Shown piece by piece: positions 3,703 through 18,706 of a DNA stretch of 21,827 nt. This DNA is from a virus: IMG/VR virus record IMGVR_UViG_3300045972_000043, positions 1-21,827 of that record; one strand, given 5' to 3'. Each line of letters begins with the position of its first letter. Within the stretch, counting starts at the first letter, position 1. The position numbers and the translations under genes are program-made. The notes below the pieces were generated by a model that was not told the origin of the DNA, made no database searches, and worked only from the letters and a program-made list of their open reading frames with translations.

Positions 3703-3728
3703 TCGTACGACTCCTTTCAAGAGTTTGT

Positions 3729-7751: not shown

Positions 7752-8393
7752 TTACCTCCGTAACTGGTGAGGCTCCGGCATGTGAATAACAAAACCACCT
7801 GAGCGGTCGCGCTCAATATAAGACTCAGTCAGATCGTCCCAACCCCAGGAACTATCGACGAATTTTGAGGGCTCGTCGATGGCGGTGAAGAAGGCCGCCA
7901 CACTGACTTCCCCGTACTCGTCGATCTGCTCGGCCAATGAGTTAAGCGCGTCTTCAGCTTCTTGTCGACTTCCAATGATGTACTCGTCTAACTGATATCT
8001 GTTGCGGTTAGGGCGAAAGCGCGGCTCATCGTTGGACTCCCTCTTTCGGGACATGGAATTATAAGGAACGATGCTCCTACCGTTGGATGGCCCACGTGAA
8101 TCTCTTCGGCCACGAGGCTCGCCCCATAACGCCGTGTCTGCCATGTCAGAGAGAAGGGTTTTGGCCGCGGGTATCATGACATCCCACATCAAGTTTTGCA
8201 GCAACTCCTTGGGCTCGACACCGAAGAAGGTCTCGGTAAACCGAGTAATCAAAGAGCGACGCTTTTTCTTAACTGGATTGACAACCACCTTCTTTGCCAT
8301 ATCCTCAGCGGGTGGCTTTTGCTCTGGCGCAGGTTTGTTAAAGCGTTCACGACGGGAGTTACCCGGAAATTCAGGACGGACAGGAACTGTCAT
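7752..8393 (-). CDS. Uncharacterised conserved phage protein, 213 residues
   Basis: ATG 8393 overlaps the previous stop (ATGA) and has GGAG 6 nt upstream, so I trimmed 29 upstream in-frame codons. The first 50 residues are basic and Pro-rich (EFPGNSRRERFN). Next comes LITRFTETFFG, then NLMWDVMIPAAKTLLSDM (a helix that may touch membranes). An Arg/Ser-rich low-complexity linker leads to a C-terminal domain with SRQEAEDALNSLAEQIDEYG, SVAAFF and SSWGWDDL. I recall similar proteins, with 'WDV-PAAK--ISDM' and 'YG--SVADLY...WGW', from Gram-positive phages that also carry DUF6353 genes. No function is known to me. The linker suggests interaction with nucleic acid or a flexible tether. Confidence 0.85.
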   Translation of the reverse strand: MTVPVRPEFPGNSRRERFNKPAPEQKPPAEDMAKKVVVNPVKKKRRSLITRFTETFFGVEPKELLQNLMWDVMIPAAKTLLSDMADTALWGEPRGRRDSRGPSNGRSIVPYNSMSRKRESNDEPRFRPNRNRYQLDEYIIGSRQEAEDALNSLAEQIDEYGEVSVAAFFTAIDEPSKFVDSSWGWDDLTESYIERDRSGGFVIHMPEPHQLRR

Positions 8394-8623
8394 TTGTTTC
8401 TCCGCATGTACGCAATTCGTAGGATGATTTGGACGAGCCACATGAATTTGGAAGGGAGATACTTCTCCGAGAAAATCCACATGCTCGTGTCGTTAACGCA
8501 CCAGTCAAGGCCCAGCGTCCGGGACTTACGTCGCCAGCCGTCGGAGTCCTGGAACAGTATAAACTTCCAACGGGCTTTCTCGTCGAACGAGTAGGCGCCG
8601 CTGACGATGAGAATCTTTTTCAA
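8390..8623 (-). CDS. Small phage protein with TTG start, 77 residues
   Basis: The start is TTG 8623: AAGGAG lies 8 nt upstream, inside the last codons of the preceding gene, and the TTG overlaps that gene's TGA (TTGA). An upstream ATG would be far inside the previous gene without a ribosome binding site. The protein begins MKKILIVSGAYSF, is rich in Trp and Lys, and ends with a hydrophobic stretch (KFMWLVQIILRIAY) followed by a basic tail, possibly a membrane-associating helix. The family is not recognised. Confidence 0.75.
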   Translation of the reverse strand: MKKILIVSGAYSFDEKARWKFILFQDSDGWRRKSRTLGLDWCVNDTSMWIFSEKYLPSKFMWLVQIILRIAYMRRNK

Positions 8624-9021
8624 AGTTCGATCTCCTTCTTCAAATCTGACGGGCAGACCCTCGTGCAATCCGGTCTCGGATCGTCACGGTCTTCCACCAA
8701 CTCGTTATGAGAATATCCGAACGGCCTCTTAGCAATATCCCACGATCCGCACCATTCCGGCAAGCGCACCTTGGTTCCGACAGCGATTGGTGAGTCGCCA
8801 TTGTCGTGCCCCATTTGCCAGCAGGACGAGCAGGACACACCTTTCATAACAATCCCTTCGCGATCGCTGGTGGGCTTAATTTCGACGTAGAAGCCGGTGC
8901 ACCCGTGGTTGTTCAAAGGTGTCTCTTCGAGGTAGATCCAGGCGGCTTTCTCGCGCTTTTCGTCGAGATCTTTCAACGCTTGCTCAATAGCGCTCCCAAC
9001 ACTTACAAATTGTTTAGGCAT
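8620..9021 (-). CDS. Cysteine-containing phage protein, 133 residues
   Basis: ATG 9021 follows AAAGGAG. The protein is soluble and has six cysteines: C41, C64-x2-C67, C91, C119 and C123. C-x2-C together with the later pair could bind one zinc, but spacing and the absence of a clear partner motif make this tentative. The middle has a beta-rich look (GFYVEIKP, GIVMKGVSC). This is the first gene of the coupled operon running to 4192. No promoter of the shared family precedes it; only a hairpin and the ACCATATTT element do. Confidence 0.78.
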   Translation of the reverse strand: MPKQFVSVGSAIEQALKDLDEKREKAAWIYLEETPLNNHGCTGFYVEIKPTSDREGIVMKGVSCSSCWQMGHDNGDSPIAVGTKVRLPEWCGSWDIAKRPFGYSHNELVEDRDDPRPDCTRVCPSDLKKEIEL

Positions 9022-9041
9022 TAATAATCTCCTTTCAAGAG

Positions 9042-9056
9042 AAATATGGTAAGATC
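9042..9056 (-). promoter_or_regulatory. Recurring GATCTTACCATATTT element
   Basis: On the minus strand GATCTTACCATATTT lies between a terminator-like hairpin and the ribosome binding site of the 8620-9021 gene. Close copies occur at 11872-11886 (GATCTAACCATATTT) and 13274-13285 (CTAACCATATTT). At 9042 and 13274 it sits where other genes have the shared promoter. A weak promoter or a readthrough site are both possible. Confidence 0.35.
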
Positions 9057-9059
9057 AGA

Positions 9060-9077
9060 TGCCAAGTTTCCTTGGCA
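9060..9077 (-). terminator. GAAA-loop hairpin after the 9090-9347 gene
   Basis: TGCCAAG-GAAA-CTTGGCA on the minus strand gives a perfect 7-bp stem with a GAAA tetraloop just after the stop. There is no U-run after it, so termination may be partial, which would let transcription reach the large operon downstream. Confidence 0.55.
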
Positions 9078-9089
9078 CCCAACCTTCAA

Positions 9090-9347
9090 CTACTTTTTCT
9101 TATCTTTGTAAAAAGCCTGAACTTCTTGATAGACCGCGACGGTCTCTTCGACTTCATGCTCGGCGAACCGGGCCACGCTTTCTGCCAATATACCAGTAAT
9201 CACCACTTCCCCGATGCCAGTCAAGATCTTTCTAAAGACCGACTGCTTGTCAGGCATAGTGTCGATTACTATATTATGGACGACAACGTGTATCCCAGCC
9301 GCGGAGATGGCTCTTACGATACTCTTCGCTAACTTCTTTCCTTCCAT
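9090..9347 (-). CDS. Small membrane-associated phage protein, 85 residues
   Basis: ATG 9347 has AGGAGG 5 nt upstream and the gene has its own promoter at 9375-9402. The N-terminus (MEGKKLAKSIVRAIS) is a basic amphipathic helix. Residues about 41-57 (ILTGIGEVVITGILAES) form a modest hydrophobic segment, followed by an acidic helix and a KDKKK end. I recall phage proteins of this shape in the same gene neighbourhood, with a central 'GG-V--G--AD' hydrophobic part, but no function. The gene is followed by a hairpin. Confidence 0.78.
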   Translation of the reverse strand: MEGKKLAKSIVRAISAAGIHVVVHNIVIDTMPDKQSVFRKILTGIGEVVITGILAESVARFAEHEVEETVAVYQEVQAFYKDKKK

Positions 9348-9374
9348 GCTTCCTCCTAAACAGAATATAGTTCC

Positions 9375-9402
9375 ATTATAGGCGAAGTTCTACGCGCGCG
9401 TT
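9375..9402 (-). promoter_or_regulatory. Shared-family promoter for 9090-9347
   Basis: -10 TATAAT lies at 9375-9380 (minus strand), preceded by CGCGCGTAGAACTTCGCC. The element lies inside the last codons of the preceding gene, and the TAA stop of that gene is part of the -10 box. Confidence 0.7.
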
Positions 9403-9696
9403 AACTCGTTCAAGACAGTCGTGGTGGCATTTGAACCAGCGTACGGACGCTCCATTTTCAAACACTGCCATCTTTTCACCCCACATCTTCACCTTGATCC
9501 CGCAATAGTCGTAGTACATTTTAATCATCTTGGTCCACTCGCTCATCGCTACGGATTCATTAGAGACAATAACAGGTAATACGGTTATGTTTGGTGCAAT
9601 CAGGGTAATGTGGAAGTGTTCGTCTTCCTTAGGCTGAGGTTCCTCTTGACGCGTCTCCCAAAGGTGCACCCGTTTTGAAATTGGGTTGTTAGACAT
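9376..9696 (-). CDS. Hypothetical phage protein, 106 residues
   Basis: ATG 9696 follows GGAGG. The protein is soluble. The N-terminus is hydrophilic, then comes a beta-like part (FHITLIAPNITVLPVIVSN), a helix with several aromatic residues (MIKMYYDYCGIKVKMW), and an end with FKCHHDCLERVNARVEL. C-HHD-C could be half of a metal site. The last seven codons double as the promoter of the next gene, so the C-terminal RVELRL is constrained by DNA signals. No terminator follows it, so it may be read through into the next gene. The family is not recognised. Confidence 0.75.
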   Translation of the reverse strand: MSNNPISKRVHLWETRQEEPQPKEDEHFHITLIAPNITVLPVIVSNESVAMSEWTKMIKMYYDYCGIKVKMWGEKMAVFENGASVRWFKCHHDCLERVNARVELRL

Positions 9697-9712
9697 TAAT
9701 CCTCCGAGAAAG

Positions 9713-9746
9713 AAGGGTAGCCTAAGTTTTCACTCAGACTACCCTT
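9713..9746 (-). terminator. Terminator after 9754-9966
   Basis: AAGGGTAG and CTACCCTT form the outer 8-bp stem (9739-9746 with 9713-9720), followed by CTTTCT. The inner stem TCTGAG/CTTAGG closes a TGAAAA loop. It separates this gene from the next one. Confidence 0.75.
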
Positions 9747-9753
9747 CAGACAC

Positions 9754-9966
9754 CTACTCCACCGGAACTTCGGTGGGTTCGACAGTTTCCTCGACCTGGC
9801 CGGGTTCGGTTTCAACAGACGATTCGATCTTGTCGGCGCCAGCTTTCAAAACACCGGCGACCGCAACAGCGATCCCGATGCCAGCAAGCGTAGCACCACC
9901 AACAATCATCTTCTTCTTGTTCGAAACGAACACCAGGCCCTTAGCCAACGTATCAGTCAGTCCCAT
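9754..9966 (-). CDS. Single-span membrane mini-protein, 70 residues
   Basis: ATG 9966 was chosen because TTGGAGG lies 5 nt upstream; an ATG four codons earlier overlaps that site. The basic stretch SNKKK is followed by a glycine/alanine-rich membrane span (about 20-42, ATLAGIGIAVAVAGVL). After it comes a long acidic Glu/Pro/Val tail. The basic side before the span suggests the N-terminus is inside and the acidic tail outside. It is monocistronic, with its own promoter and terminator. No family recognised. Confidence 0.78.
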   Translation of the reverse strand: MGLTDTLAKGLVFVSNKKKMIVGGATLAGIGIAVAVAGVLKAGADKIESSVETEPGQVEETVEPTEVPVE

Positions 9967-9995
9967 TTCATCCTCCAATCAAAAGTATATGTATC

Positions 9996-10023
9996 AATAT
10001 AAGCGTGGTTTTTTACGCGTCTA
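9996..10023 (-). promoter_or_regulatory. Shared-family promoter for 9754-9966
   Basis: ACGCGTAAAAAACCACGC precedes a TATATT -10 at 9996-10001. The block begins directly at the TAG stop of the DUF6353-like gene before it. The leader GATACATATACTTTTG is nearly identical to that of the 12847-12996 gene. Confidence 0.72.
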
Positions 10024-10839
10024 CAGAAATGACAACTTGGTTCCAGACGGCAAGGGCATCGGGCGCTGCATGTATTCGAGAGTAATGCACGGCGTATTGT
10101 CCGCAGCAAGTTTCGCGCCGAAGTCAATATTCAGCATAAACTCGTCGACAGTTCCGTTCTTGACAGACCATCCGACCAGATCTCCAAGACCAGTGACCGG
10201 AAGACCCAAGGCGCAGTACCATTCGTTGGCCGTCTTGTACTGGCAGCGCAGAAGGTCTTCGTTGAAGTCATTCATCTTGCGCCGGACGGTCTCAATGTCG
10301 CCTTTGAAGTAGCGCCCAGAGAGTCCGTCGTAGCATAACGTGTCACCACCAGTAAAAATGATCTGGGTGTTGTTGATCGGAGTTGCATCGAGCTTGTCCT
10401 GCATGATCTCGCCTCTCAACTCCTGTTCCTTCTTCTCGCCAACCTTCTCAATGATCTTTTCGCGGTATTTCGTGATCGTCGTCTCGGCAAGCCCGTACAA
10501 GGCAGCCAGAGCCGAATATCGTTTTTCCCCAATAGAATGGGCGGCGACAATGCAAGCGATCGTTGCTAGGCCCATCCCAGCCGCGGGGATGTAGTTTTTC
10601 CAGGTGAGAAGGGCTTTTTCTTTGAGTGTCAGATCCATTGGAGCGGGATAACCTTCAACTGCTGTGTCCCGGTCCAACTCGTTTCTGATCATAAGAGCAG
10701 ATTCAATCCCAGCATCAGCAGCCATGACAGCAGTGGTAACAACTCCGCCAACTGCGAGAGTGGTCAGGATGGTCGTTGAGTGCTCTTTACCAAAGCCTGC
10801 TATCAGGCCAAATATGTTACGTGCGTTGGTGATGTTCAT
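10021..10839 (-). CDS. DUF6353-like membrane protein (copy A), 272 residues
   Basis: ATG 10839 has GGAAGGT 4-5 nt upstream and overlaps the preceding gene by 23 nt; 16 further upstream in-frame codons are left out for lack of a site. Two membrane segments lie at about 22-42 and 84-101. They are followed by HSIGEKRYSALAALYGLAET, a helical KYREKIIEKVGEKKEQ stretch, and a C-terminal domain with GGDTLCYDGLSGRYFKGDIE, NEWYCALGL, LGDLVGWSV and PCITLEY. The order and motifs closely fit DUF6353 as I remember it (YIPA, VG-KKE, DG-SGRYF, LG--VGW), a family common in Gram-positive phages and of unknown function. The domain after the second span should be cytoplasmic if the charged loop faces inward. Confidence 0.9.
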   Translation of the reverse strand: MNITNARNIFGLIAGFGKEHSTTILTTLAVGGVVTTAVMAADAGIESALMIRNELDRDTAVEGYPAPMDLTLKEKALLTWKNYIPAAGMGLATIACIVAAHSIGEKRYSALAALYGLAETTITKYREKIIEKVGEKKEQELRGEIMQDKLDATPINNTQIIFTGGDTLCYDGLSGRYFKGDIETVRRKMNDFNEDLLRCQYKTANEWYCALGLPVTGLGDLVGWSVKNGTVDEFMLNIDFGAKLAADNTPCITLEYMQRPMPLPSGTKLSFL

Positions 10840-11014
10840 TTTTACCTTCCATAAAGGTCTTAGCACAACTTTTGATAGTCTGTCCAAGTAAAACAGGAGA
10901 AAAACCAGTCGCGGAAGCCAGTTCTATGATTTTCGAACGTTCTTCTTTCGTGAAACCCATGGCCCATAAATCTCGTTCGTCTTTACTAATAGGGATTGGC
11001 TCCGAGTCGCTCAT
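10817..11014 (-). CDS. Hypothetical phage protein, 65 residues
   Basis: ATG 11014 follows AGAGGAT and overlaps the stop of the 13-codon gene (ATGA). It starts MSDSEPIPISKDERDLW and has a small helical part (FTKEERSKIIELASATGF, SPVLLGQTIKSCAKTF) reminiscent of a compact helix bundle. The start region is nearly identical in DNA to that of the gene at 11049-11339, with the same MSD opening and the same upstream sequence, which suggests local duplication. Its end holds the ribosome binding site of the DUF6353-like gene. Family not recognised. Confidence 0.78.
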   Translation of the reverse strand: MSDSEPIPISKDERDLWAMGFTKEERSKIIELASATGFSPVLLGQTIKSCAKTFMEGKNEHHQRT

Positions 11015-11052
11015 TTCTTATCCTCTAAATATAAGACGTTTTGCAAGTTCAT
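11011..11052 (-). CDS. 13-codon mini-gene MNLQNVLYLEDKK
   Basis: ATG 11052 overlaps the TGA of the upstream gene, and its TGA overlaps the ATG of the downstream gene. GGAGGA lies 6 nt before the start. The peptide MNLQNVLYLEDKK copies the C-terminal end of the upstream protein (DVLYLEDDK) and resembles the end of the one before that (NTLYWGDKK). It is either a translated coupling peptide or a remnant of a duplicated gene. Confidence 0.5.
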   Translation of the reverse strand: MNLQNVLYLEDKK

Positions 11053-11339
11053 TTATCGTCCTCCAAATATAAAACATCTTCAAAATAGTCATAGCCGACC
11101 AAACGTCCGAAGACATCGGTCATGGGGATACGTTCCAGGCGAGCAGGTCGTCCGGTTGAATCGAGGTGGTCGACAGCGAAGGACGTGTCGTAGTTAGTCC
11201 TTGAAACGACGACGCTGGTTTGTCCCTTTGGGACGAGTGTGACAGTTGTTTTCTCGCTGTATTCGTTAGAGAGTTTCTTAAGAAAAGAGCACAGTGTATA
11301 AACCTCCATCGGTGTCTTAGGAAGTGGTCTGTCGCTCAT
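11049..11339 (-). CDS. Hypothetical phage protein, 96 residues
   Basis: ATG 11339 has GGGGAG upstream and overlaps the stop of the zinc-motif gene (ATGA). The protein starts MSDRPLPKTPMEVYTLCSFLKK and continues with beta-like stretches (TTVTLVPKGQTSVVVS, SFAVDHL, ERIPMTDVFGRLVGYDYF). It ends DVLYLEDDK, an ending shared with its neighbours because that DNA also carries the next ribosome binding site. The neighbour at 11336-11806 also has a VDVFG-LG-G piece close to its end, so the C-terminal parts of the two may be related. No function is suggested. Confidence 0.78.
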   Translation of the reverse strand: MSDRPLPKTPMEVYTLCSFLKKLSNEYSEKTTVTLVPKGQTSVVVSRTNYDTSFAVDHLDSTGRPARLERIPMTDVFGRLVGYDYFEDVLYLEDDK

Positions 11340-11806
11340 TTCTTATCTCCCCAATATAAGGTGTTTGTTTCTTTGTCGAAACCCAAACCGAGTCCAAAGA
11401 CGTCAACGATTCCATAGTAAGCCGGTGGGTAATGACCTTCTCTTACGTTCACAATCCGGGTCTCGTTATTCAGGCCTTCTGCGAGTAGCGTAAAGAGATT
11501 ATGAAGCTCGTGGATTTTTTGACGGCGAAGCCATTCAGCACGGTAAACTCCGAAACTCGTCTCAACATTCTTGCGTTTCTCGTTTACGCATTTTTGGCAG
11601 GTGTGGAACCAGTTCTCCGCCATTAAGTTCATAGGAATAACTTTCTGGCAAACACTACAAACGTCAAACTTCGCCGTTGCAGCGCAATCGAGATGCATTG
11701 AGAGAACTTTTCTTTCCATCGTTCCACCGCCCAAGGTTCCCGTTAGATAACGATCGCCTTCAATTTCTTTAAAGCACAACGCGCACACTGGTTTTAGTTC
11801 AGGCAT
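11336..11806 (-). CDS. LIM-like zinc-binding phage protein, 156 residues
   Basis: ATG 11806 follows AAAGGAG. Nine potential ligands are arranged as two zinc sites: C8-x2-C11, H38-x2-C41, C50-x2-C53, and H68-x-C70-x2-C73. This spacing resembles LIM or double treble-clef modules, which bind proteins or nucleic acid. The C-terminal half is an alpha-helical stretch (YRAEWLRRQKIHELHNLF) followed by a YYGIVDVFGLGLGFD segment ending in LYWGDKK. It is the first gene of the operon 11806-10021. A regulator of the nearby shared promoters is possible but is inferred only from its type and place. Confidence 0.8.
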   Translation of the reverse strand: MPELKPVCALCFKEIEGDRYLTGTLGGGTMERKVLSMHLDCAATAKFDVCSVCQKVIPMNLMAENWFHTCQKCVNEKRKNVETSFGVYRAEWLRRQKIHELHNLFTLLAEGLNNETRIVNVREGHYPPAYYGIVDVFGLGLGFDKETNTLYWGDKK

Positions 11807-11839
11807 AATTGTCTCCTTTCAAGACAAAGAATATAGGAT

Positions 11840-11863
11840 AGGTAGTGGCAAACGCTGCTACCT
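11840..11863 (-). terminator. Weak hairpin after 11880-12116
   Basis: AGGTAG and CTACCT pair in the minus-strand transcript around a 12-nt loop. No U-run follows and the loop lacks the GAAA sequence of the other hairpins. It could be a partial terminator ahead of the zinc-protein operon, which has no shared-family promoter of its own. Confidence 0.35.
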
Positions 11864-11879
11864 CTCCCCTCAAATATGG

Positions 11880-12116
11880 TTAGATCTTGTTGAACAAGAC
11901 GTTGTTGATGATCAGATGCCGGACAACGCCGTCAGGGTCTGTGATCGTTTTAACGTTGATCTTGTGCGGCATCAGGTTGCGGGCCGCTTGGAAACCCCGG
12001 TCGTACCCAGCACTGTAATAGAGAACAGCGACGGTTCCAAGAACAATCCCTAAGGTTGTCGTTGGATGTGCATAGGCGAACTTTTTAACTTTACTTCCAA
12101 ACTCGTTCCAATCCAT
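11880..12116 (-). CDS. Single-span membrane mini-protein, 78 residues
   Basis: ATG 12116 has GGAGG upstream at 6 nt; the in-frame ATG further upstream overlaps the promoter and is rejected. The N-terminus is MDWNEFGSKVKKFAYAHP, followed by one span (about 19-37, TTTLGIVLGTVAVLYYSAG) and a soluble part with TITDPDGVVRHLIINNVLF. It has its own promoter and a structured leader. No family recognised. Confidence 0.78.
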   Translation of the reverse strand: MDWNEFGSKVKKFAYAHPTTTLGIVLGTVAVLYYSAGYDRGFQAARNLMPHKINVKTITDPDGVVRHLIINNVLFNKI

Positions 12117-12141
12117 GTCAATCCTCCATCGAAAGTTTTTA

Positions 12142-12188
12142 AGAGAAGTAGCAGCAATTGCACCCGAAGGCCCGGCCCCTACTTCTCT
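12142..12188 (-). other. Structured 5' leader of the 11880-12116 mRNA
   Basis: AGAGAAGTAG and CTACTTCTCT form a perfect 10-bp stem starting within a few nucleotides of the expected transcript start. The interior contains GCCTTCGGGT, which can form a UUCG tetraloop hairpin. A 5'-terminal hairpin of this kind could protect the mRNA or hold a regulatory fold. Confidence 0.5.
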
Positions 12189-12189
12189 C

Positions 12190-12217
12190 ATTATAGCCGT
12201 GGTTTTTTACGCGTCTA
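12190..12217 (-). promoter_or_regulatory. Shared-family promoter for 11880-12116
   Basis: ACGCGTAAAAAACCACGG precedes TATAAT at 12190-12195. The block abuts the TAG stop of the preceding gene. Confidence 0.75.
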
Positions 12218-12667
12218 CTTAACCTTCCACCAAATACTGCCGGACGCCGTCTTTGCCTTGTGGTACTCAAGCGTGGAAAGCTTGTGCTTGAAGTGGTCCC
12301 CAACAACATGCTCATCGCCGTTGCTGTCGTTGTAGAAGGTTGCCTTATTCTCGCCAACCTGAACCCAAAGCATCTCAACTATCACTTCATCATCGTCATT
12401 ATCGATAACACGCCCACAGCGCTTAGCCGAGATCAGGCCCTGGTTGCCTTTCCAGTTGGTGCCTTCCAGTTGGATGTCTTTCCATACGAGTTGCCCGATT
12501 TCGAGTTGCGACTTCACGAGCTCAATCTTCTGCTCGTAATCCATCTTCGCCAGCGACAGCTGACCTTCCGGAGTCTGAGACCAGCGAAGAGCGTCCATTT
12601 CCTTCGCCTTCTGATCGACCAATTTGGCGACATGCGCCCGTGATGCACAGTTCTGAATACCAGCCAT
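12215..12667 (-). CDS. Hypothetical soluble phage protein, 150 residues
   Basis: ATG 12667 (MAGIQNCAS) has AAGGAG 8 nt upstream; an ATG three codons earlier would overlap that site. The first 65 residues look helical (AHVAKLVDQKAKEMDAL, MDYEQKIELVKSQLE). The rest is beta-like with RVIDNDDDEVIVEMLWVQVG and ends GSIWWKVK. It differs from its neighbours in being soluble and larger. It has its own promoter and a long hairpin leader. No terminator follows; the promoter of the next gene begins at its stop codon. Family not recognised. Confidence 0.78.
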   Translation of the reverse strand: MAGIQNCASRAHVAKLVDQKAKEMDALRWSQTPEGQLSLAKMDYEQKIELVKSQLEIGQLVWKDIQLEGTNWKGNQGLISAKRCGRVIDNDDDEVIVEMLWVQVGENKATFYNDSNGDEHVVGDHFKHKLSTLEYHKAKTASGSIWWKVK

Positions 12668-12698
12668 TTCTAACACTCCTTCAAAAATTGAAAATAGT

Positions 12699-12778
12699 GA
12701 GACTAAGATATGTTAACGTCCAAGCCGTAATGCCCGGAATATTCTTGACGTCAGAATTGTAACTCATATCTTACTCTC
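12699..12778 (-). other. Long hairpin leader of the 12215-12667 mRNA
   Basis: The arms 12699-12717 and 12759-12778 pair over about 19 positions with one mismatch and a bulge (CATATCTTAGTCTC against GAGAGTAAGATATG). An inner ACGTC/GACGT stem (12716-12720 with 12747-12751) continues the fold. It begins at the expected transcript start and precedes an unusually long leader of about 100 nt. An unidentified cis-acting RNA is possible. Confidence 0.5.
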
Positions 12779-12803
12779 ATAATAGCATATGATTTTTACG
12801 CGT
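12779..12803 (-). promoter_or_regulatory. Shared-family promoter for 12215-12667
   Basis: CACGCGTAAAAATCATATGC precedes a TATTAT -10 at 12779-12784. It lies just after the terminator of the 12847-12996 gene. Confidence 0.65.
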
Positions 12804-12806
12804 GCC

Positions 12807-12839
12807 AAAATGGGAGGACACGTTTCTGTGTTCCCATTT
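12807..12839 (-). terminator. Terminator after 12847-12996
   Basis: AAATGGGA and TCCCATTTT form the outer stem. ACAC/GTGT is the inner stem closing an AGAAAC loop. It has A-runs before and T-runs after, so it could work in both directions. Confidence 0.8.
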
Positions 12840-12846
12840 CCTTACA

Positions 12847-12996
12847 CTACCCTCCGACGACTTTATGCCAGTGTTCGATGATCCGGTTGCGCATCTGCTC
12901 GGCCTTCCGTGCGACGTCGATGATGAACTCAATCATCTTAATCAGCATCCACAGAAAAACCACAGTCGCATAAACCTTTCTCAAAAACTTCCGCAT
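12847..12996 (-). CDS. Membrane-associated mini-protein, 49 residues
   Basis: ATG 12996 has GAAGGAG 7 nt upstream; the stop is TAG 12847. The protein starts with a basic MRKFLRK, then a hydrophobic segment (about 8-27, VYATVVFLWMLIKMIEFIID) and an amphipathic charged helix ending HWHKVVGG. It is monocistronic between its own promoter (13028-13056) and terminator (12807-12839), which supports its reality in spite of its size. No family recognised. Confidence 0.75.
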   Translation of the reverse strand: MRKFLRKVYATVVFLWMLIKMIEFIIDVARKAEQMRNRIIEHWHKVVGG

Positions 12997-13027
12997 TTAA
13001 AACTCCTTCGACAAAAGTATGTGTATC

Positions 13028-13056
13028 ACTATATGCTCAGTTATTTTAGCGTGGAT
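13028..13056 (-). promoter_or_regulatory. Shared-family promoter for 12847-12996
   Basis: CACGCTAAAATAACTGAGCA precedes a TATAGT -10 at 13028-13033. It overlaps the TAA stop of the preceding gene. The leader GATACACATACTTTTG matches that of the 9754-9966 gene. Confidence 0.62.
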
Positions 13057-13264
13057 ATCGCTTAAGAATATCCAGACCTTCCGACCACATCTGATTGCAC
13101 ACCTTGTCGATCTCCACTAAACCTCTGTGAAGTTCCCAACTCGGTTTAAAAGACACAAAGCACCAGACCATCATAATGAGTGTTATCAATCCCATTAGGA
13201 TAGTCACGAAGACCAGGGCAATCAGCCCAATGACCCACTTCCAAATCCACCAGATAGTTTTCAT
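13046..13264 (-). CDS. Trp-rich membrane protein, 72 residues
   Basis: ATG 13264 has GGAGGA 3-4 nt upstream. The N-terminus MKTIWWIWKW leads straight into a long hydrophobic segment (about 11-38) with IGLIALVFVTILMGLITLIM. A soluble C-terminal helix follows (ELHRGLVEIDKVCNQMWSEGL). Unlike its neighbours it has no TATAAT promoter; only the CTAACCATATTT element separates it from the terminator of the gene before, so it may depend on readthrough. No family recognised. Confidence 0.75.
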   Translation of the reverse strand: MKTIWWIWKWVIGLIALVFVTILMGLITLIMMVWCFVSFKPSWELHRGLVEIDKVCNQMWSEGLDILKRYPR

Positions 13265-13288
13265 TCTTCCTCCAAATATGGTTAGGCG

Positions 13289-13322
13289 AAAAGAGGAGGA
13301 CAGGTTTCCCTGATTCCTCTTT
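13289..13322 (-). terminator. GAAA-loop terminator after 13330-13509
   Basis: AAAGAGGA and TCCTCTTTT form the outer stem. TCAGG-GAAA-CCTG is the inner hairpin. A T-run follows. The gene at 13046-13264 begins only 25 nt further on. Confidence 0.8.
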
Positions 13323-13329
13323 CAAACAA

Positions 13330-13509
13330 TTAGTTCTTGAACAAGCTGATCTGGCGTTCGATCAAAGCGAACAGCATCTTGTAAAACCGAACAAACACGT
13401 AGACAGACAAAGTCATCGAGACGCCGCAAAGCGCCATGTAGACAATGAAAGCAACGAGAATGCTCCGAATAACTTCGGCGCTGATAACGATGTTAATTCC
13501 GTCAATCAT
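13330..13509 (-). CDS. Membrane mini-protein, 59 residues
   Basis: ATG 13509 (MIDGINIVIS) has GGGAG 8 nt upstream; an in-frame ATG 11 codons earlier would fall at or before the transcript start. One long hydrophobic stretch (about 13-45) with SILVAFIVYMALCGVSMTL could cross the membrane once or as a tight hairpin. It is followed by a basic end (FALIERQISLFKN). Own promoter and terminator. No family recognised. Confidence 0.78.
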   Translation of the reverse strand: MIDGINIVISAEVIRSILVAFIVYMALCGVSMTLSVYVFVRFYKMLFALIERQISLFKN

Positions 13510-13540
13510 TTTTAACTCTCCCAAAACTAGAATATGTTTC

Positions 13541-13568
13541 ATTATAGCAGTGGTTATTTACGCGTGCG
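13541..13568 (-). promoter_or_regulatory. Shared-family promoter for 13330-13509
   Basis: CACGCGTAAATAACCACTGC precedes TATAAT at 13541-13546. GAAACATATTC follows the -10, as in several members. Confidence 0.75.
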
Positions 13569-13604
13569 AAAATGGGAGCCTAAGTTTCCCTAGACCCTCC
13601 ATTT
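13569..13604 (-). terminator. GAAA-loop terminator after 13612-13854
   Basis: AAATGGAGGG pairs imperfectly with CTCCCATTTT. The inner part is CTAGG-GAAA-CTTAG with a G-U pair. It ends in TTTT and touches the next promoter. Confidence 0.8.
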
Positions 13605-13611
13605 CCTTAAA

Positions 13612-13854
13612 TCACTTAGTCATAAACCGGATTTCTTTCCATTGATCGGATATAACCACGACGAAACCGTTGAGACTTATTTTGAATCCTTTCTTGACCC
13701 CGCCGGTGCGACCGTATGTGAATATACCAGTGACGAACACCGGAAACATTACAACAATACTAATCGCGCAGGCGACAATCGCCAAAGCAGTCATAGCAAT
13801 CCACAACCAAATTTTCAACGCGTCTAACCAAACACCTAACAGAAATTTACCCAT
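13612..13854 (-). CDS. Membrane protein, 80 residues
   Basis: ATG 13854 (MGKFLLGVW) has AAAGGAG upstream; earlier in-frame ATGs overlap the -10 box or precede it. A strongly hydrophobic region (about 15-45, WLWIAMTALAIVACAISIVV then MFPVFVTGIF) can make one or two spans. A glycine/lysine-rich turn (GRTGGVKKGFK) and a short NGFVVVISDQW segment follow, with a basic end. Own promoter and terminator. No family recognised. Confidence 0.8.
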   Translation of the reverse strand: MGKFLLGVWLDALKIWLWIAMTALAIVACAISIVVMFPVFVTGIFTYGRTGGVKKGFKISLNGFVVVISDQWKEIRFMTK

Positions 13855-13879
13855 TTCATTCTCCTTTAGATTTAATTTC

Positions 13880-13905
13880 ATTATAGGCGCAGTTATTCTC
13901 GCGAA
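13880..13905 (-). promoter_or_regulatory. Shared-family promoter for 13612-13854
   Basis: TCGCGAGAATAACTGCGCC precedes TATAAT at 13880-13885. The leader GAAATTAAATC is identical to that of the 13943-14062 gene. Confidence 0.75.
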
Positions 13906-13939
13906 AAAGGGAGGAGACGTTTCCGTCGTTCCCCTTTTT
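13904..13939 (-). terminator. GAAA-loop terminator after 13943-14062
   Basis: AAAAAGGGGAACGACG-GAAA-CGTC and CTCCCTTTTT form a long stem with a GAAA loop, followed by T5. It directly abuts the next promoter. Confidence 0.82.
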
Positions 13940-13942
13940 GAA

Positions 13943-14062
13943 TTATTTCTTTTTGAACGATTTTCCAACAAAGTAGATAACAACAACGATGGTTGCAATG
14001 ACGAGCAGGGCTTTACCCAGCACAACGAACATTCCGACACCAATCACAGCGCTTTCTAGCAT
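13943..14062 (-). CDS. Single-span membrane mini-protein, 39 residues
   Basis: ATG 14062 has TTGGAG upstream at 8 nt; the stop is TAA 13943. The protein is almost entirely one membrane helix (about 5-32, VIGVGMFVVLGKALLVIATI) with a basic KSFKKK end, so the C-terminus should be inside. Its small size fits a holin-like, antiholin-like or exclusion peptide, but nothing specific identifies it. Own promoter and terminator. Confidence 0.75.
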   Translation of the reverse strand: MLESAVIGVGMFVVLGKALLVIATIVVVIYFVGKSFKKK

Positions 14063-14094
14063 TTTAGTTTTCTCCAAAAAATAGATTTAATTTC

Positions 14095-14122
14095 ATTATA
14101 GGCGTGGTTTTTTACGCGTGTG
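14095..14122 (-). promoter_or_regulatory. Shared-family promoter for 13943-14062
   Basis: CACGCGTAAAAAACCACGCC precedes TATAAT at 14095-14100. This is the closest member to the consensus; GCGT-N8-ACGC inside it is an inverted repeat. Confidence 0.8.
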
Positions 14123-14158
14123 AAAATGGGAGGCTGAGTTTCCCCAGCGCCCATTTTT
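14123..14158 (-). terminator. GAAA-loop terminator after 14163-14342
   Basis: AAAAATGGG and CCCATTTT form the outer stem. GCTGGG-GAAA-CTCAGC is the inner hairpin with one G-U pair. It could work in both directions. Confidence 0.82.
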
Positions 14159-14162
14159 GAAC

Positions 14163-14342
14163 CTACTTCCAAAAATCGTTCTCAAAACAAGTCTTAACAT
14201 TCGTCCCTGTGTTAAAGCAGACTGGGCCCCATTTATTTGTGGTTTCATCAACCCGGCTAATAGCCGAGCTAATTAAAGCCGCAATACAAATGGTCGCCAC
14301 GACCAAAATCAACACAACGATTCGTTCCGTTTTCTTGTTCAT
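14163..14342 (-). CDS. Exported or anchored protein with a Cys pair, 59 residues
   Basis: ATG 14342 (MNKKTERIVVL) has AAAAGGAG 7-8 nt upstream. A basic start is followed by a hydrophobic segment (about 9-26, VVLILVVATICIAALISS). The remaining 33 residues are polar, with WGPVCFNTGTNVKTCF holding C42 and C52. The positive-inside rule would place this part outside the membrane, where the two cysteines could form a disulfide. A surface role such as superinfection exclusion is only a guess. Own promoter and terminator. Confidence 0.78.
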   Translation of the reverse strand: MNKKTERIVVLILVVATICIAALISSAISRVDETTNKWGPVCFNTGTNVKTCFENDFWK

Positions 14343-14370
14343 TTCACACTCCTTTTTTGAAATATGTTTC

Positions 14371-14396
14371 ATTATAGGCGTGGTTATTCGCGCGAA
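14371..14396 (-). promoter_or_regulatory. Shared-family promoter for 14163-14342
   Basis: TCGCGCGAATAACCACGCC precedes TATAAT at 14371-14376, followed by GAAACATATTTC. Confidence 0.77.
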
Positions 14397-14430
14397 AGAG
14401 AAATGCTAAGTTTCCCTAACATCCCTCTTC
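14395..14430 (-). terminator. GAAA-loop terminator after 14448-14636
   Basis: AGAGGGATGTTAG-GGAAAC and TTAGCATTTCTCTTT form an imperfect stem with the usual loop. It touches the next promoter. Confidence 0.72.
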
Positions 14431-14447
14431 CCCATATCCCTTATGGC

Positions 14448-14636
14448 TTACTCGCCGCGTTTCTTCTGCGATCTGTTGTCAGCGATAAGATAGACAATCC
14501 CACCAAGAATAAACATCCCGAATAAGGCGCCTCCTACTTGAATAGTAGTGTTTTGGCGAATTATTCTTTGCTGATTCTTTTGGATCTTTTCTAGCTCGTC
14601 CATGACCTTTGCATCAACAACCGTAAACTGCTGCAT
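14448..14636 (-). CDS. Coiled-coil plus membrane-span mini-protein, 62 residues
   Basis: ATG 14636 has AAAGGAGG upstream. Residues 1-30 form a soluble helix with heptad-like spacing (VMDELEKIQKNQQRIIRQ). A glycine-rich span follows (about 32-51, QVGGALFGMFILGGIVYLIA), then a basic tail (DNRSQKKRGE). The layout resembles small phage membrane proteins such as antiholins, without a diagnostic motif. Own promoter and terminator. Confidence 0.78.
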   Translation of the reverse strand: MQQFTVVDAKVMDELEKIQKNQQRIIRQNTTIQVGGALFGMFILGGIVYLIADNRSQKKRGE

Positions 14637-14664
14637 AGTACCTCCTTTTCATAGAATATGTTTC

Positions 14665-14690
14665 ACTATAAGGGAGGTTATTCACGCGAA
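14665..14690 (-). promoter_or_regulatory. Shared-family promoter for 14448-14636
   Basis: TCGCGTGAATAACCTCCC precedes a TATAGT -10 at 14665-14670, followed by GAAACATATTC. Confidence 0.68.
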
Positions 14691-14725
14691 AAAGGTAGGC
14701 TAGGTTTCCCCAGCCGTTCCCTTTT
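14690..14725 (-). terminator. GAAA-loop terminator after 14729-14965
   Basis: AAAAGGGAACGGCTGG-GGAAAC and CTAGCCTACCTTTTT pair into an imperfect stem with a T-run. Confidence 0.75.
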
Positions 14726-14728
14726 GAA

Positions 14729-14965
14729 CTACTTCCAAAATTGCCAGAATTTCTTCGGTTGTTTGATTTGATAAAATGTCAGTTCAAGATTCAAGATTTT
14801 GATTCTCCGTTCGAGTTTACTTAAGCCGTATTCATGCGCTGTGATCGCTGCTGCTCTATTAGCAGGATCTTTCATGCTGAAAATGCTCAAATAAAACTCG
14901 TCAAGAGATTGATTCGTGATCTTTAGATCTGATATTTCCTTGCCCAATCTTTCAAGTTCAGTCAT
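14729..14965 (-). CDS. Soluble coiled-coil protein, 78 residues
   Basis: ATG 14965 has AAAGGAG 6 nt upstream. The protein is helical throughout (MTELERLGKEISDLKI, GLSKLERRIKILNLEL), with no membrane span. It ends in an aromatic, basic KKFWQFWK that could insert at a membrane surface. It stands out among membrane-span neighbours with the same promoter type. No family recognised. Confidence 0.78.
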   Translation of the reverse strand: MTELERLGKEISDLKITNQSLDEFYLSIFSMKDPANRAAAITAHEYGLSKLERRIKILNLELTFYQIKQPKKFWQFWK

Positions 14966-14991
14966 CTCTTTCTCCTTTTAGATTTAGTTTC

Positions 14992-15018
14992 ATTATAGGC
15001 GCAGTAATTCGCGCGTAA
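14992..15018 (-). promoter_or_regulatory. Shared-family promoter for 14729-14965
   Basis: ACGCGCGAATTACTGCGCC precedes TATAAT at 14992-14997. GCGC-N8-GCGC forms an inverted repeat. Confidence 0.75.
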
Positions 15019-15054
15019 CCTATTTTAGGAATTTTACTCCGCGGGATTTTTTCG

Positions 15055-15090
15055 AAAAACGGTATGCTAAGTTTCCTTAACATACCATTT
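15055..15090 (-). terminator. GAAA-loop terminator after 15113-15403
   Basis: GGTATGTTAAG-GAAA-CTTAGCATACC followed by GTTTTT is a strong stem with one G-U-type position. A further GC-rich palindrome (CCGCGG) lies between it and the next promoter. Confidence 0.82.
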
Positions 15091-15112
15091 CCGTACAACT
15101 TCTTGATTCGAC

Positions 15113-15403
15113 TCAAACACGTCCCTTAAGGACAAAGCTAATGGCCTTGCTTGAGATCACCCTGAGTTGTTCGTACTCAAGGATGACCACGATTCCGAGG
15201 ATATTCGTCACGGCTACGATAACCGTATCCATGCTAAACGACGGTTTCGACTTTGCAGTCGTAATCGCGTATAGCGCAGTTAAGTTATCTGTAGCGTGCA
15301 AATACTCCTCGCTACCGACGGTCATCTTTGACATCGCTGTCAACACATGAATGACCTCATCATCAATTACCAGTTTCTTTACTTCCTTCTTACGGAACCA
15401 CAT
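15113..15403 (-). CDS. Membrane protein of a phage family of unknown function, 96 residues
   Basis: ATG 15403 has GAGAGGAG upstream. The N-terminus MWFRKKEVKKLVIDDEV is basic then acidic. It is followed by a helical part with a SEEYLHATDNLTALYAI segment, then one membrane span (about 60-76, TVIVAVTNILGIVVILEYE) and a short C-terminal SSKAISFVLKGRV. From memory this resembles a common family of small proteins of Gram-positive phages ('Y---V-NL--L ... VTSKAL-FVLK'), function unknown. It is the first gene after the holin and has its own promoter and terminator. Confidence 0.82.
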   Translation of the reverse strand: MWFRKKEVKKLVIDDEVIHVLTAMSKMTVGSEEYLHATDNLTALYAITTAKSKPSFSMDTVIVAVTNILGIVVILEYEQLRVISSKAISFVLKGRV

Positions 15404-15429
15404 TTAATGCTCCTCTCAAGATGTACTTC

Positions 15430-15456
15430 ATTATACCGTACGTTATTCGCGCGAAC
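15430..15456 (-). promoter_or_regulatory. Shared-family promoter for 15113-15403
   Basis: TTCGCGCGAATAACGTACGG precedes TATAAT at 15430-15435. A second GCGAATAAC copy overlaps the stop codon of the holin gene just upstream. Confidence 0.75.
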
Positions 15457-15461
15457 GGGTG

Positions 15462-15998
15462 TTATTCGCTTGTACGTTCCATGGCTTGTCTGGCAGCCTC
15501 AATTTGAGAAATCTCGACCTTGTATTGGGCGTTGCTAATCCCTAGGAATATTCCCATGAAAGTGTCGATTGCGGCGATAGTTCCGATTACCTGGTCTCCA
15601 TATTGGAAACCCCAGATCGGACTTAACGCGACGGTGATTGTTCCAATGGAGGGAAGCAGGTATTGAGTGAAGAACATCAGAATGTCGTAAGTCTCTTCTG
15701 TCATTTTGATTATTAGACCAGTGCGACGTTCTTGAGTGGGAAAGGTTTTGATGTCTAGCGCAGCGGATCGCTTTAAGAGTTGTCCACCAAGGGACTTAAC
15801 ATCGGCCTGGTATTGTTTGTTCCCCATTCCAAGAACGAACCCCAAGGCAGAGTCAATAGCCATGACGGATAACACAATCTCGTCCCCATAAGGGAAACCC
15901 CAGATCTGTGTCAAGGCGAAGTACAGGGTTGCCAAGCCTGGTAAGAGATACTGGGCAACCCATTTCAAACGGTCGTAAGTTTCATTTGAGATCCGCAT
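15462..15998 (-). CDS. Tandem-duplicated Dp-1-type holin, 178 residues
   Basis: ATG 15998 has AAGGA upstream and overlaps the preceding gene by 17 nt. Residues 3-63 and 99-159 are two copies of one unit that align without gaps at an offset of 96. Shared positions include ETYD, QYLLP, PIWGF or QIWGF, YGD, a central AID, LG and N-QY. The unit matches the Dp-1-like phage holin pattern (short N-terminal helix, two spans with IWG-P-Y between, then LG). Such holins are normally one unit of about 65-80 residues. A linker of about 35 residues joins the units and a charged tail ends the protein. It should form membrane lesions at lysis; the fusion could fix dimer geometry or pair an active with a modulating unit. 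No terminator follows it. Confidence 0.85.
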   Translation of the reverse strand: MRISNETYDRLKWVAQYLLPGLATLYFALTQIWGFPYGDEIVLSVMAIDSALGFVLGMGNKQYQADVKSLGGQLLKRSAALDIKTFPTQERRTGLIIKMTEETYDILMFFTQYLLPSIGTITVALSPIWGFQYGDQVIGTIAAIDTFMGIFLGISNAQYKVEISQIEAARQAMERTSE

Positions 15999-16338
15999 CT
16001 TTTCCTTCCTCGTGCATAGCCTTCTCAAAACGTGACTCAATGATCTGAAGTTTCTTAACTTCGGTCATCACACGCTCTGCGGTTCCGTTTCCGCCCAATT
16101 CCTTGTAAGGGACGAAGAGATAATCGTGTAAATTCTCAAACTCATCCCGAGTTATCTGACCTTTCTCCAAAAAGTGGAATTCAAGCCAGATAATCCGGTC
16201 GTGAGCGATACCCATAAGCAGTTTGCGTTCCAAACCCCTCGATTCGTTCAGTTTTGACATAAACAGCCAAAACCCCGAGGACATCAGACCCGCGATTACG
16301 ATAGAAGCGAGTATTTCTAGTAATTTCACTGTATCCAT
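15982..16338 (-). CDS. Membrane protein next to holin, holin/antiholin-like, 118 residues
   Basis: ATG 16338 (MDTVKLLEIL) has AGAGGA 6 nt upstream. One membrane span (about 7-27) is followed by a cytoplasmic helical part with ERKLLMGIAHDRIIWL, ITRDEFENLHDYLFVPYKELGGNGTAERVM. The 'LL-G-AHDRI ... EY-NLHDYLY-PYK-LGGNGTAE' pattern is one I remember from small proteins beside holins in Gram-positive phages, with no established biochemical role. Position and topology suggest that it modulates the holin. The holin start lies inside its 3' end, so the two are translationally coupled. Confidence 0.82.
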   Translation of the reverse strand: MDTVKLLEILASIVIAGLMSSGFWLFMSKLNESRGLERKLLMGIAHDRIIWLEFHFLEKGQITRDEFENLHDYLFVPYKELGGNGTAERVMTEVKKLQIIESRFEKAMHEEGKDADLK

Positions 16339-18694: not shown

Positions 18695-18706
18695 CAGCAT
18701 ACCTCC

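Follow-up and report, generated by a model that had tools for sequence, protein, structure and literature searches.

The question raised by this locus is which RNA polymerase (RNAP) reads a series of promoter-like repeats that carry a TATAAT-like hexamer preceded by a conserved block. In the window, i.e. the whole 21,827-nt stretch of viral DNA analysed, the repeats reported in an earlier note were confirmed as 12 copies of a 28-mer, all on the minus strand. They are listed below as candidate promoter elements, together with neighbouring features.

15426–15453, minus strand: element 1, upstream of ORF 15113–15403
15062–15085, minus strand: GAAA-loop hairpin ahead of element 2, candidate terminator for the preceding unit (z -2.90)
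14988–15015, minus strand: element 2, upstream of ORF 14729–14965
14690–14725, minus strand: hairpin and U-run directly before element 3 (z -2.62)
14661–14688, minus strand: element 3, upstream of ORF 14448–14636
14395–14430, minus strand: hairpin and U-run directly before element 4 (z -5.69)
14367–14394, minus strand: element 4, upstream of an ORF with SD-supported start at 14342
14123–14157, minus strand: hairpin and U-run directly before element 5 (z -4.01)
14091–14118, minus strand: element 5, followed by an ORF that ends at 13943 and has an SD-supported start at 14062
13904–13938, minus strand: hairpin and U-run directly before element 6 (z -2.53)
13876–13903, minus strand: element 6, SD-supported start at 13854
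13568–13606, minus strand: hairpin and U-run directly before element 7 (z -5.16)
13537–13564, minus strand: element 7, SD-supported start at 13509
13289–13323, minus strand: hairpin and U-run of the same kind with no element behind it (z -3.09)
13024–13051, minus strand: element 8, weaker (CGCT, TATAGT), upstream of ORF 12847–12996
12807–12840, minus strand: hairpin before element 9 (z -2.10)
12775–12802, minus strand: element 9 (TATTAT), next ORF 12215–12676, ~100 nt away
12186–12213, minus strand: element 10, SD-supported start at 12116
9992–10019, minus strand: element 11 (TATATT), SD-supported start at 9966
9371–9398, minus strand: element 12, upstream of ORF 9090–9347
1–3720, minus strand: DNA primase/polymerase gene, truncated at the edge of the window, family assigned via the G004 homologue

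Reality of the repeats

The distance from CGC(G) to the hexamer is 18 bp in all 12 elements, and the hexamer is TATAAT in eight, TATAGT in two, and TATATT and TATTAT in one each. Scored with a matrix built from the same 12 elements, one of which entered one base out of register, the elements reach 19.9–42.2 bits, as compared with 9.3 bits for the next best place in the window and 16.4 bits for the best in 20 first-order Markov sequences. The fixed spacing and the scores above all 20 Markov sequences show that the repeats are real. A start codon with a Shine-Dalgarno (SD) sequence lies 26–33 nt past the hexamer in ten elements and 74 nt past it in another; for the element at 12775–12802, no SD-supported start codon was found by the rule applied to all 12. 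An origin by chance or as a coding remnant was excluded by the shuffles, by the relatives and by the one-strand bias (206/208 records) described below.

The inverted repeat GCGT-N8-ACGC, described in the earlier note as often present, was found in only 2 of the 12 elements and in 4 of the 869 sites of the wider family; hence, it is not a defining feature, and an inverted-repeat operator was rejected. No named phage matched the window in a direct look-up, and a search for related loci with the DUF6353 protein returned two stretches, with no relative among them.

A family of elements in phages of Actinomycetota and Bacillota

Across Actinomycetota and Bacillota phages and prophages, the element has the consensus TCGC-R-N-R-WWWW-ACA-N-SS-CC-TATAAT-GA. 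The family comprises 869 non-redundant sites which, like the 603 sites used below, were pooled from records picked by element, RNAP or polymerase and so are not an unbiased sample. Sites are confined to a single strand in 206 of the 208 records with matches at 13 bits and occur on both strands in the other two. There are up to ~20 elements per genome, mostly ahead of single small genes. The box is exactly TATAAT at 481 of 869 sites; A is absent from position 2 at 168 (19%) and T from position 6 at 19, and the variants TTTAAT, CTTTAT and TCTTAT occur within the same arrays. The CGC, ACA and TATAAT boxes are 9.5–10 bp apart, and hence face the same side of the helix.

IMG/VR DNA was scanned with a window-type pattern, which gave seven stretches, and with a looser one, which gave at least 120, both from phages of this group; the reversed-pattern controls that were run gave none. 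When 84,980 species of bacteria and archaea were searched, the pattern had five matches. No prior report of the element was found in searches of an open-access library of published main texts, including the accessible text of PMC5513430, PMC13313380, PMC5467207, PMC8270828, PMC10770324, PMC7824862, PMC7481178, PMC7302621 and PMC8758107.

The -35 region and the start of transcription

A loose scan of both strands of positions 9000–16200 revealed 11 sigma-70-like sites, as compared with 9.5 expected. At the 603 sites of relatives, a TTGACA-like hexamer (at least 4/6) is found 16–18 bp from the box in 7% and at three spacings further upstream in 10–15%; at closer spacings, the values are 3% at 7–9 bp and 65% at 4–6 bp, the latter because that spacing covers the conserved WWTTACA. 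The absence of a -35 box pointed out in the earlier note therefore holds statistically, though 6 of the 12 elements pass the loose scan with 9–11 of 12 matches, and the element family lacks the -35 hexamer at 16–18 bp that is characteristic of sigma-A promoters.

Sigma-A promoters also need A at the second -10 position, with T at the sixth, and transcription by the host sigma-A enzyme starts ~7 nt downstream of the -10. The position of the start in the element family was constrained indirectly by SD and tRNA-like positions, which do not agree with such a distance. Of 378 sites that have an ORF and a strong SD, 54 (33 records) show an SD starting 1–4 nt after the box, as compared with 2 of 4345 control windows, the matrix itself somewhat raising the chance of an SD there by covering the first five positions past the box. 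With offsets up to 60 allowed, all 19 element-linked tRNA-like genes (so termed as several calls have no clear anticodon, 'tRNA-???') begin 3–8 nt after the box, at offsets that lie outside the matrix. The first two positions after the box are 100% purine, partly by construction, as the matrix favours G or A there, and in actinophages positions 5–8 are mostly C (53–77%).

These indirect constraints would place the start directly after TATAAT and not 7 nt later. TATAAT is probably a start-site box rather than a sigma -10, in which case a missing -35 is expected. The frame adopted in the earlier note, a host-type -10 and conserved spacer block read by the host polymerase with an activator or repressor, fits worse, because the start indicated by the SD and tRNA positions immediately follows the box and because 168 of 869 boxes have no A at position 2.

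A candidate RNA polymerase

A protein of ~900 residues, phrog_4291, is common to the element-bearing genomes. Its alignments include an invariant GADFDGD (10/10 and 34/34 sequences), which provides the catalytic aspartate triad DxDGD, and both termini carry HTH/Sigma70_r4-like domains. In the AlphaFold2 model (pLDDT 78.7, pTM only 0.57), residues 225–707 match QDE-1 with E 9e-10, Z 15.2 and rmsd 5.0 over 376 residues; the further best solved matches are RDR2, P74-26 gp62 (Z 12.6) and P23-45 gp64 (Z 11.3). The model thus predicts a single chain with a two-barrel RNA polymerase fold. Searching PDB sequences with a profile of the RNAP alignment gave HTH and unrelated matches only, with no polymerase. 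Among the shared non-structural proteins scanned, only the phrog_4291 RNAP has an HTH; the other shared core proteins scanned contain no recognisable DNA-binding regulator domain, and several have no known domain at all.

At least 511 relatives of phrog_4291 are present in IMG/VR, one full gene per record being the rule. Cultured phages of Gordonia, Streptomyces, Arthrobacter, Microbacterium, Curtobacterium and Bifidobacterium carry this RNAP subfamily. The name 'NCgl1702-like' is used in the accessible text of PMC7824862. An N-terminal peptide, [YF]LxHYG...WG, is common to the phrog_4291 RNAP and head-region proteins.

Co-occurrence of the element and the polymerase

All six contigs examined that carry the window-type pattern encode phrog_4291, a seventh (10 kb) having been left out. 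With the looser pattern, 34 of 45 contigs match phrog_4291, 31 of them in full or nearly so, among the listed matches of at least 28.9 kb; 11 have no match and three a partial one only. All 17 element-bearing contigs of at least 50 kb encode the protein, among the matches listed. Four contigs with no or a partial match are 40–50 kb long: two end less than 1 kb from the polymerase or helicase gene, one ends 5.5 kb past the polymerase gene, and one is without that gene. In the reverse test, 27 of 34 records chosen by the polymerase carry the strict element, always on the polymerase strand, as compared with none for the reversed pattern; the other seven do not show the strict pattern. Genome G021 (61 kb) encodes the RNAP and has a single weak element, and a de novo repeat search of two of its four stretches revealed no variant element. 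Four of the five cellular genomes with the pattern encode the polymerase, as compared with 2 of 199 in a phylum sample (one being a query genome, the other at E = 5e-4). Co-occurrence, as expected of a cognate promoter of a phage RNAP, is thus observed with exceptions.

Phages that share the DNA polymerase and have no RNAP were sought to break the linkage, and 32 of the 34 records have the RNAP; the other two stop 4.9 and 7.1 kb beyond the polymerase gene, possibly through truncation. In a partial Mantel analysis of 26 genomes, the correlation was 0.22 (p 0.02) for RNAP given DNA polymerase and 0.35 for DNA polymerase given RNAP. Divergence of the element tracks the RNAP no better than the DNA polymerase, and hence the co-occurrence does not set the RNAP apart from other linked core genes.

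The window itself, a 21,827-base fragment, contains no RNAP gene. In relatives, that gene is downstream of the DNA primase/polymerase gene, which here would place it beyond the window edge at position 1, and the nearest relative by DNA polymerase (60%; the contig of L269/L120/G039) has the RNAP and four elements.

Interpretation and alternatives

The 12 elements are best interpreted as promoters of a phage-encoded single-chain RNA polymerase of the two-barrel (double-psi beta-barrel) type, the phrog_4291 protein, with a probability of about 0.74. The gene, near the genome end and downstream of the DNA polymerase gene in relatives, would be present in the genome of the window as well. Its product would read a compact promoter of ~27 bp, with TCGC at -25 to -22, WWWWACA at -18 to -12 and CC at -8/-7; the AT box TATAAT at -6 to -1 would be melted and transcription would start at the purine (G or A) right after it. 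The boxes could be contacted by the two terminal HTH regions of the polymerase, the assignment of box to domain being putative. In the window, each element would drive mostly one small gene, often closed by a terminator hairpin abutting the next element. The interpretation in the earlier note is partly supported: the altered polymerase specificity under phage control that it suggested comes close to this reading, which is its stronger form, a separate phage-encoded enzyme.

Alternatively, the host RNAP with sigma-A may read TATAAT as a -10 while the role of the -35 is taken by the TCGC/WWWWACA block and a conserved phage protein bound to it, much as with T4 MotA/AsiA or an activator that binds the spacer. 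The exact sigma-A consensus in 8/12 and 481/869 boxes agrees with this, and an upstream block that does not depend on the host would be consistent with a factor encoded by the phage. Furthermore, the element is also found ahead of the exonuclease-RNAP region in several genomes, where transcription could only get under way with an enzyme carried in the virion, host activity or some other promoter, and a host enzyme reading the element would be the easiest solution. Nevertheless, this reading is unlikely: a start 7 nt downstream would cut the SDs at 1–4 nt and the tRNA-like genes at 3–8 nt, the C-rich positions 5–8 in actinophages and the 19% of boxes without A at position 2 fit it less well, and the RNAP is the only shared core protein scanned with a recognisable DNA-binding regulator domain, several of the others having no known domain. 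The regulator named in the earlier note, the zinc protein at 11336–11806, has no Pfam or PHROG match and was rejected, as no homologue was found in nine related element-bearing genomes (E up to 1).

Dual promoters, fired weakly by host sigma-A early and later taken over by the phage RNAP with a start a few nt upstream, would solve the same start-up problem and account for the lasting similarity of the box to a sigma-A -10; they are improbable, given that TTTAAT, CTTTAT and TCTTAT are poor sigma-A -10s yet lie in the same arrays. Repeats bound by a phage repressor or silencer, as at mycobacteriophage stoperators, would likewise be numerous, intergenic and in one orientation, but a fixed register to an AT box, a nearby SD and start codon and a preceding hairpin are promoter architecture and an inverted repeat is nearly absent from the family, which makes operators highly improbable.

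A broader proposal extending from the phrog_4291 reading is tentative and itself rather doubtful. In a widespread lineage of Actinomycetota and Bacillota phages, most or all transcription may be performed by one virion-carried single-chain two-barrel RNAP with its own sigma-like HTH domains, TATAAT being read as a start-site box, [YF]LxHYG...WG marking virion carriage and no host promoter being needed.

Significance and comparison with known systems

Start signals of single-chain phage RNAPs are still poorly known. Comparative sequence here yields a precise promoter and a predicted start for a very common subfamily, and its presence in cultured phages makes the prediction testable at once. It would correct promoter prediction and gene starts in these genomes, in which TATAATG is easily taken for a sigma -10 or a start codon. 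It could also supply a compact orthogonal expression system for Gram-positive hosts.

T7-type promoters are compact and contiguous, with TATA directly before the start and many scattered copies. The element family would work alike, but the T7 polymerase fold is unrelated to the two-barrel type of phrog_4291. T4 middle promoters (MotA/AsiA) share the TATAAT-like box, the missing -35 and a conserved upstream block, and differ in being read by the host holoenzyme at the normal sigma start distance. Neurospora QDE-1 and plant RDR2, the best fold matches of the model (Z 12–15, ~340–440 residues aligned), are cellular RNA-silencing enzymes without promoters of this kind.

Microbacterium phages of clusters EC, EI and EG also have repeated motifs in short intergenic gaps, but the 18-bp motif of EC phages has another sequence, and a sigma factor gene is noted in EC and EI phages (accessible text of PMC7302621). 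The two-barrel single-chain RNAPs gp64 and gp96 of Thermus phage P23-45 have their own conserved promoter motifs, described in the accessible text as GC-rich and AT-rich; that phage has a virion and a non-virion enzyme (PMC10770324), whereas the records here generally carry a single full phrog_4291 gene. A further counterpart is the single-chain two-barrel RNAP YonO of Bacillus subtilis phage SPbeta (Forrest et al. 2017, PMC5467207). According to the accessible text, it is one phage-encoded polypeptide of ~100 kDa with multisubunit-type catalytic aspartates that transcribes phage genes. Such enzymes were suggested to be similar to the polymerase from which all cellular RNA polymerases descend. 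Transcription by YonO begins upstream of yonK and covers a single long late operon, its promoter sequence having been left open in that text (PMC5467207), whereas the phrog_4291 polymerase would serve up to ~20 elements, mostly ahead of single small genes.

Promoter-like elements in the small-ORF array

The window, a fragmentary virus record of 21,827 bases, has its genes on the minus strand in the order tape measure, Dit, minor tail, large fibre-like or head protein, holin, small-ORF array, DUF6353 membrane proteins (phrog_2152) and DNA primase/polymerase, the last being truncated at the left edge. DUF6353 occurs twice. The array holds 12 elements with the consensus CGCG-N-R-AAWAAC-NN-C-N-CC-TATAAT-GAAA, and the spacing from CGC to the hexamer (the box) is 18 bp in all of them. 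Element scores are 19.9–42.2 bits, as compared with 9.3 for the runner-up place in the window and at most 16.4 in shuffled sequence. The twelve repeated TATAAT-linked elements described in the earlier note are thus borne out by their fixed spacing and by scores above those of shuffled sequence; the inverted repeat (GCGT-N8-ACGC) that it also reported is present in 2 of the 12.

Several elements are directly preceded by hairpins, many of which carry a GAAA loop and a U-run (z ≤ −2.1 in 8 of 9 folded segments). Therefore, the typical unit consists of promoter element, Shine-Dalgarno sequence (SD), small gene and terminator. Further places in the window are as follows.

13289–13323: terminator-like hairpin of the same kind with no element behind it
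14163–14372, 13330–13542 and similar, minus strand: ORFs for which mechanical calls take the ATG inside TATAATGA as start codon, SD-supported starts being located ~30 nt beyond it
4497–5126, 7752–8480 and 5020–5802, minus strand: proteins of three families (phrog_4678, phrog_4079 and one more) that recur in most or all of the group's compared genomes

Distribution of the element

Only seven stretches in IMG/VR match a pattern close to that of the window's copies. The contigs of all seven include further copies of a more general element, on one strand only, and the reversed pattern gave no match. The element precedes small genes in Gordonia phage Mossy, Streptomyces phages Rima and SheRa, Arthrobacter phages Salk and DevitoJr, Microbacterium phage DizzyRudy, Bifidobacterium phage BitterVaud1, a saliva contig and, in the form TATAATAGA, Curtobacterium phage AddiRose. 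The relatives share the gene order tail, holin, array, DUF6353, primase/polymerase, SSB, helicase, VRR-Nuc, exonuclease and a protein of ~900 residues. The family consensus, from 603 non-redundant sites, is T-CGC-A/G-N-A/G-WWWW-ACA-N-SS-CC-TATAAT-G-A-R-A. Strand bias is extreme: at 80 loci found via the DNA polymerase gene alone, the coding strand has 295 sites and the opposite strand none; sites of at least 13 bits occur in 208 of 263 pooled records and on both strands in two of those 208.

The top-scoring element of the bacterial-genome matches (46 bits) lies at 3423–3454 of Streptomyces sp. NRRL F-5122 contig NZ_LMWH01000236.1. There, CRISPR-like repeats (~37 bp) flank it on both sides as a lone insert the size of a spacer. 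The genome lacks the ~900-residue protein, and the insert is apparently a CRISPR spacer derived from the promoter element. Such a spacer would match many sites within one phage genome.

Position of the transcription start

Sigma-A starts transcription ~7 nt downstream of the −10 hexamer, and the start position therefore discriminates the host sigma-A from another enzyme. Of the 378 sites that combine a strong SD with a suitable gap and an ORF of at least 30 codons, 54, from 33 records, have the SD starting 1–4 nt past the box, as against 2 of 4345 control windows. Examples are CTATAAT|AGGAGGTAATGAGATG in the related record L137 and CTATAAT|GAAAGGAGAGATTAATATG in L269, the window's nearest relative by DNA polymerase. 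A start by sigma-A would cut or remove these SDs. The element also stands in front of 19 of 47 tRNA or tRNA-like genes (phage records G006, L264, L265, L284, L342 and others), and for several of these ARAGORN gave no clear anticodon. All 19 genes behind an element start 3–8 nt past the box, so that a sigma-A start would fall inside most of them.

Positions 5–8 past the box are mostly C in the actinophages, and the second-position A is absent from 168 of 869 boxes. Together with the SD positions and the tRNA-like gene starts, these features make about −6 to −1 the best position for the box, and the purine directly behind it the putative start. With this placement, the three conserved boxes would be spaced at about one turn of the helix. 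As the element is probably no sigma promoter, the missing −35 hexamer is no longer odd.

The phrog_4291 protein as candidate reader

The ~900-residue protein, phrog_4291 (gp86 of Rima, gp89 of Mossy), is annotated as 'RNA-dependent RNA polymerase' in Rima and elsewhere as 'helix-turn-helix DNA binding domain protein' or hypothetical. All 10 of the 10 sequences aligned retain GADFDGD and SNLITDM unchanged, and Pfam places HTH domains at both ends. Sigma70_r4_2 exceeds the Pfam cut-off in three of five scanned proteins (Rima, SheRa, AddiRose), and a weak RdRP match surrounds DFDGD in three of the five (SheRa, AddiRose and the related record G004). An AlphaFold2 model (34 sequences, pLDDT 78.7, pTM 0.57) has its nearest structural matches in QDE-1, plant RDR2 and the phage RNA polymerases (RNAPs) P74-26 gp62 and P23-45 gp64. 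By motif and predicted fold, the protein is a predicted single-chain two-barrel RNAP. Short stand-alone ORFs in contigs of this group (G082 18684–19082, G304 19415–19690 and G314 27285–27497) match only segment ~538–634 of the RNAP profile, which includes SNLITDM.

Among the matches listed, 45 contigs of at least 28.9 kb were picked by the element; 34 have a phrog_4291 match (full or nearly full length in 31), as do 17 of 17 of at least 50 kb. Conversely, the strict element was found in 27 of 34 contigs picked by the RNAP (those of at least 17 kb among 80). The window's DNA polymerase was used to pick a further 80 contigs; of 34 longer ones among them, 32 have the RNAP and 24 a pattern match, and a matrix scan gave at least one site in 73 of the 80 loci. 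The pattern matched five times in bacterial and archaeal genomes of 84,980 species, and four of the five genomes with a match carry both the RNAP and element arrays; a phylum sample had the RNAP in 2 of 199 genomes, one being the query genome and the other a weak match.

The nine genomes compared have about two dozen genes in common, and in a partial Mantel test of 26 genomes the RNAP had no advantage over the DNA polymerase. The association of element and RNAP is strong, yet shared by other core genes. No known regulator domain was found in the scanned small non-structural proteins shared by the nine genomes. The reader of the elements is most likely the phage's own RNAP, which would start transcription at them, next to the AT box. 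Reading by this enzyme would account for the same element in hosts of two phyla and across phage genomes of 33–61% G+C, for its recurrence before so many array genes, and for a start adjoining the box.

Several genomes also have elements upstream of the exonuclease-RNAP region, and the structural arm of the complete genomes that were mapped showed none; hence the start of infection is a puzzle for reading by the RNAP. The N-terminus of the RNAP, [YF]LxHYG[ILTV]...WG (e.g. LxHYGILRKSGRYPWGSG), is disordered in the model and resembles the N-terminal [YF]LxHYGVKGMKWG of head-region proteins (L259 10528–14848, L261 5454–7863 and others in related records). One of the PHROGs that these head-region proteins match is named virion structural protein. 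Given the resemblance of the two N-termini, one possibility, offered as a lead, is that the RNAP is packaged in the virion to make the first transcripts, and the shared peptide may be a virion-targeting tag.

Comparison with known systems

In the portions of the open-access literature searched, no account was found of the element or of phrog_4291 acting as a transcribing enzyme. Promoters specific to a phage and phage RNAPs of the two-barrel type are both already known kinds. The promoter of YonO was left open in 2017 (PMC5467207), and promoter motifs are described for the P23-45 RNAP (PMC10770324).
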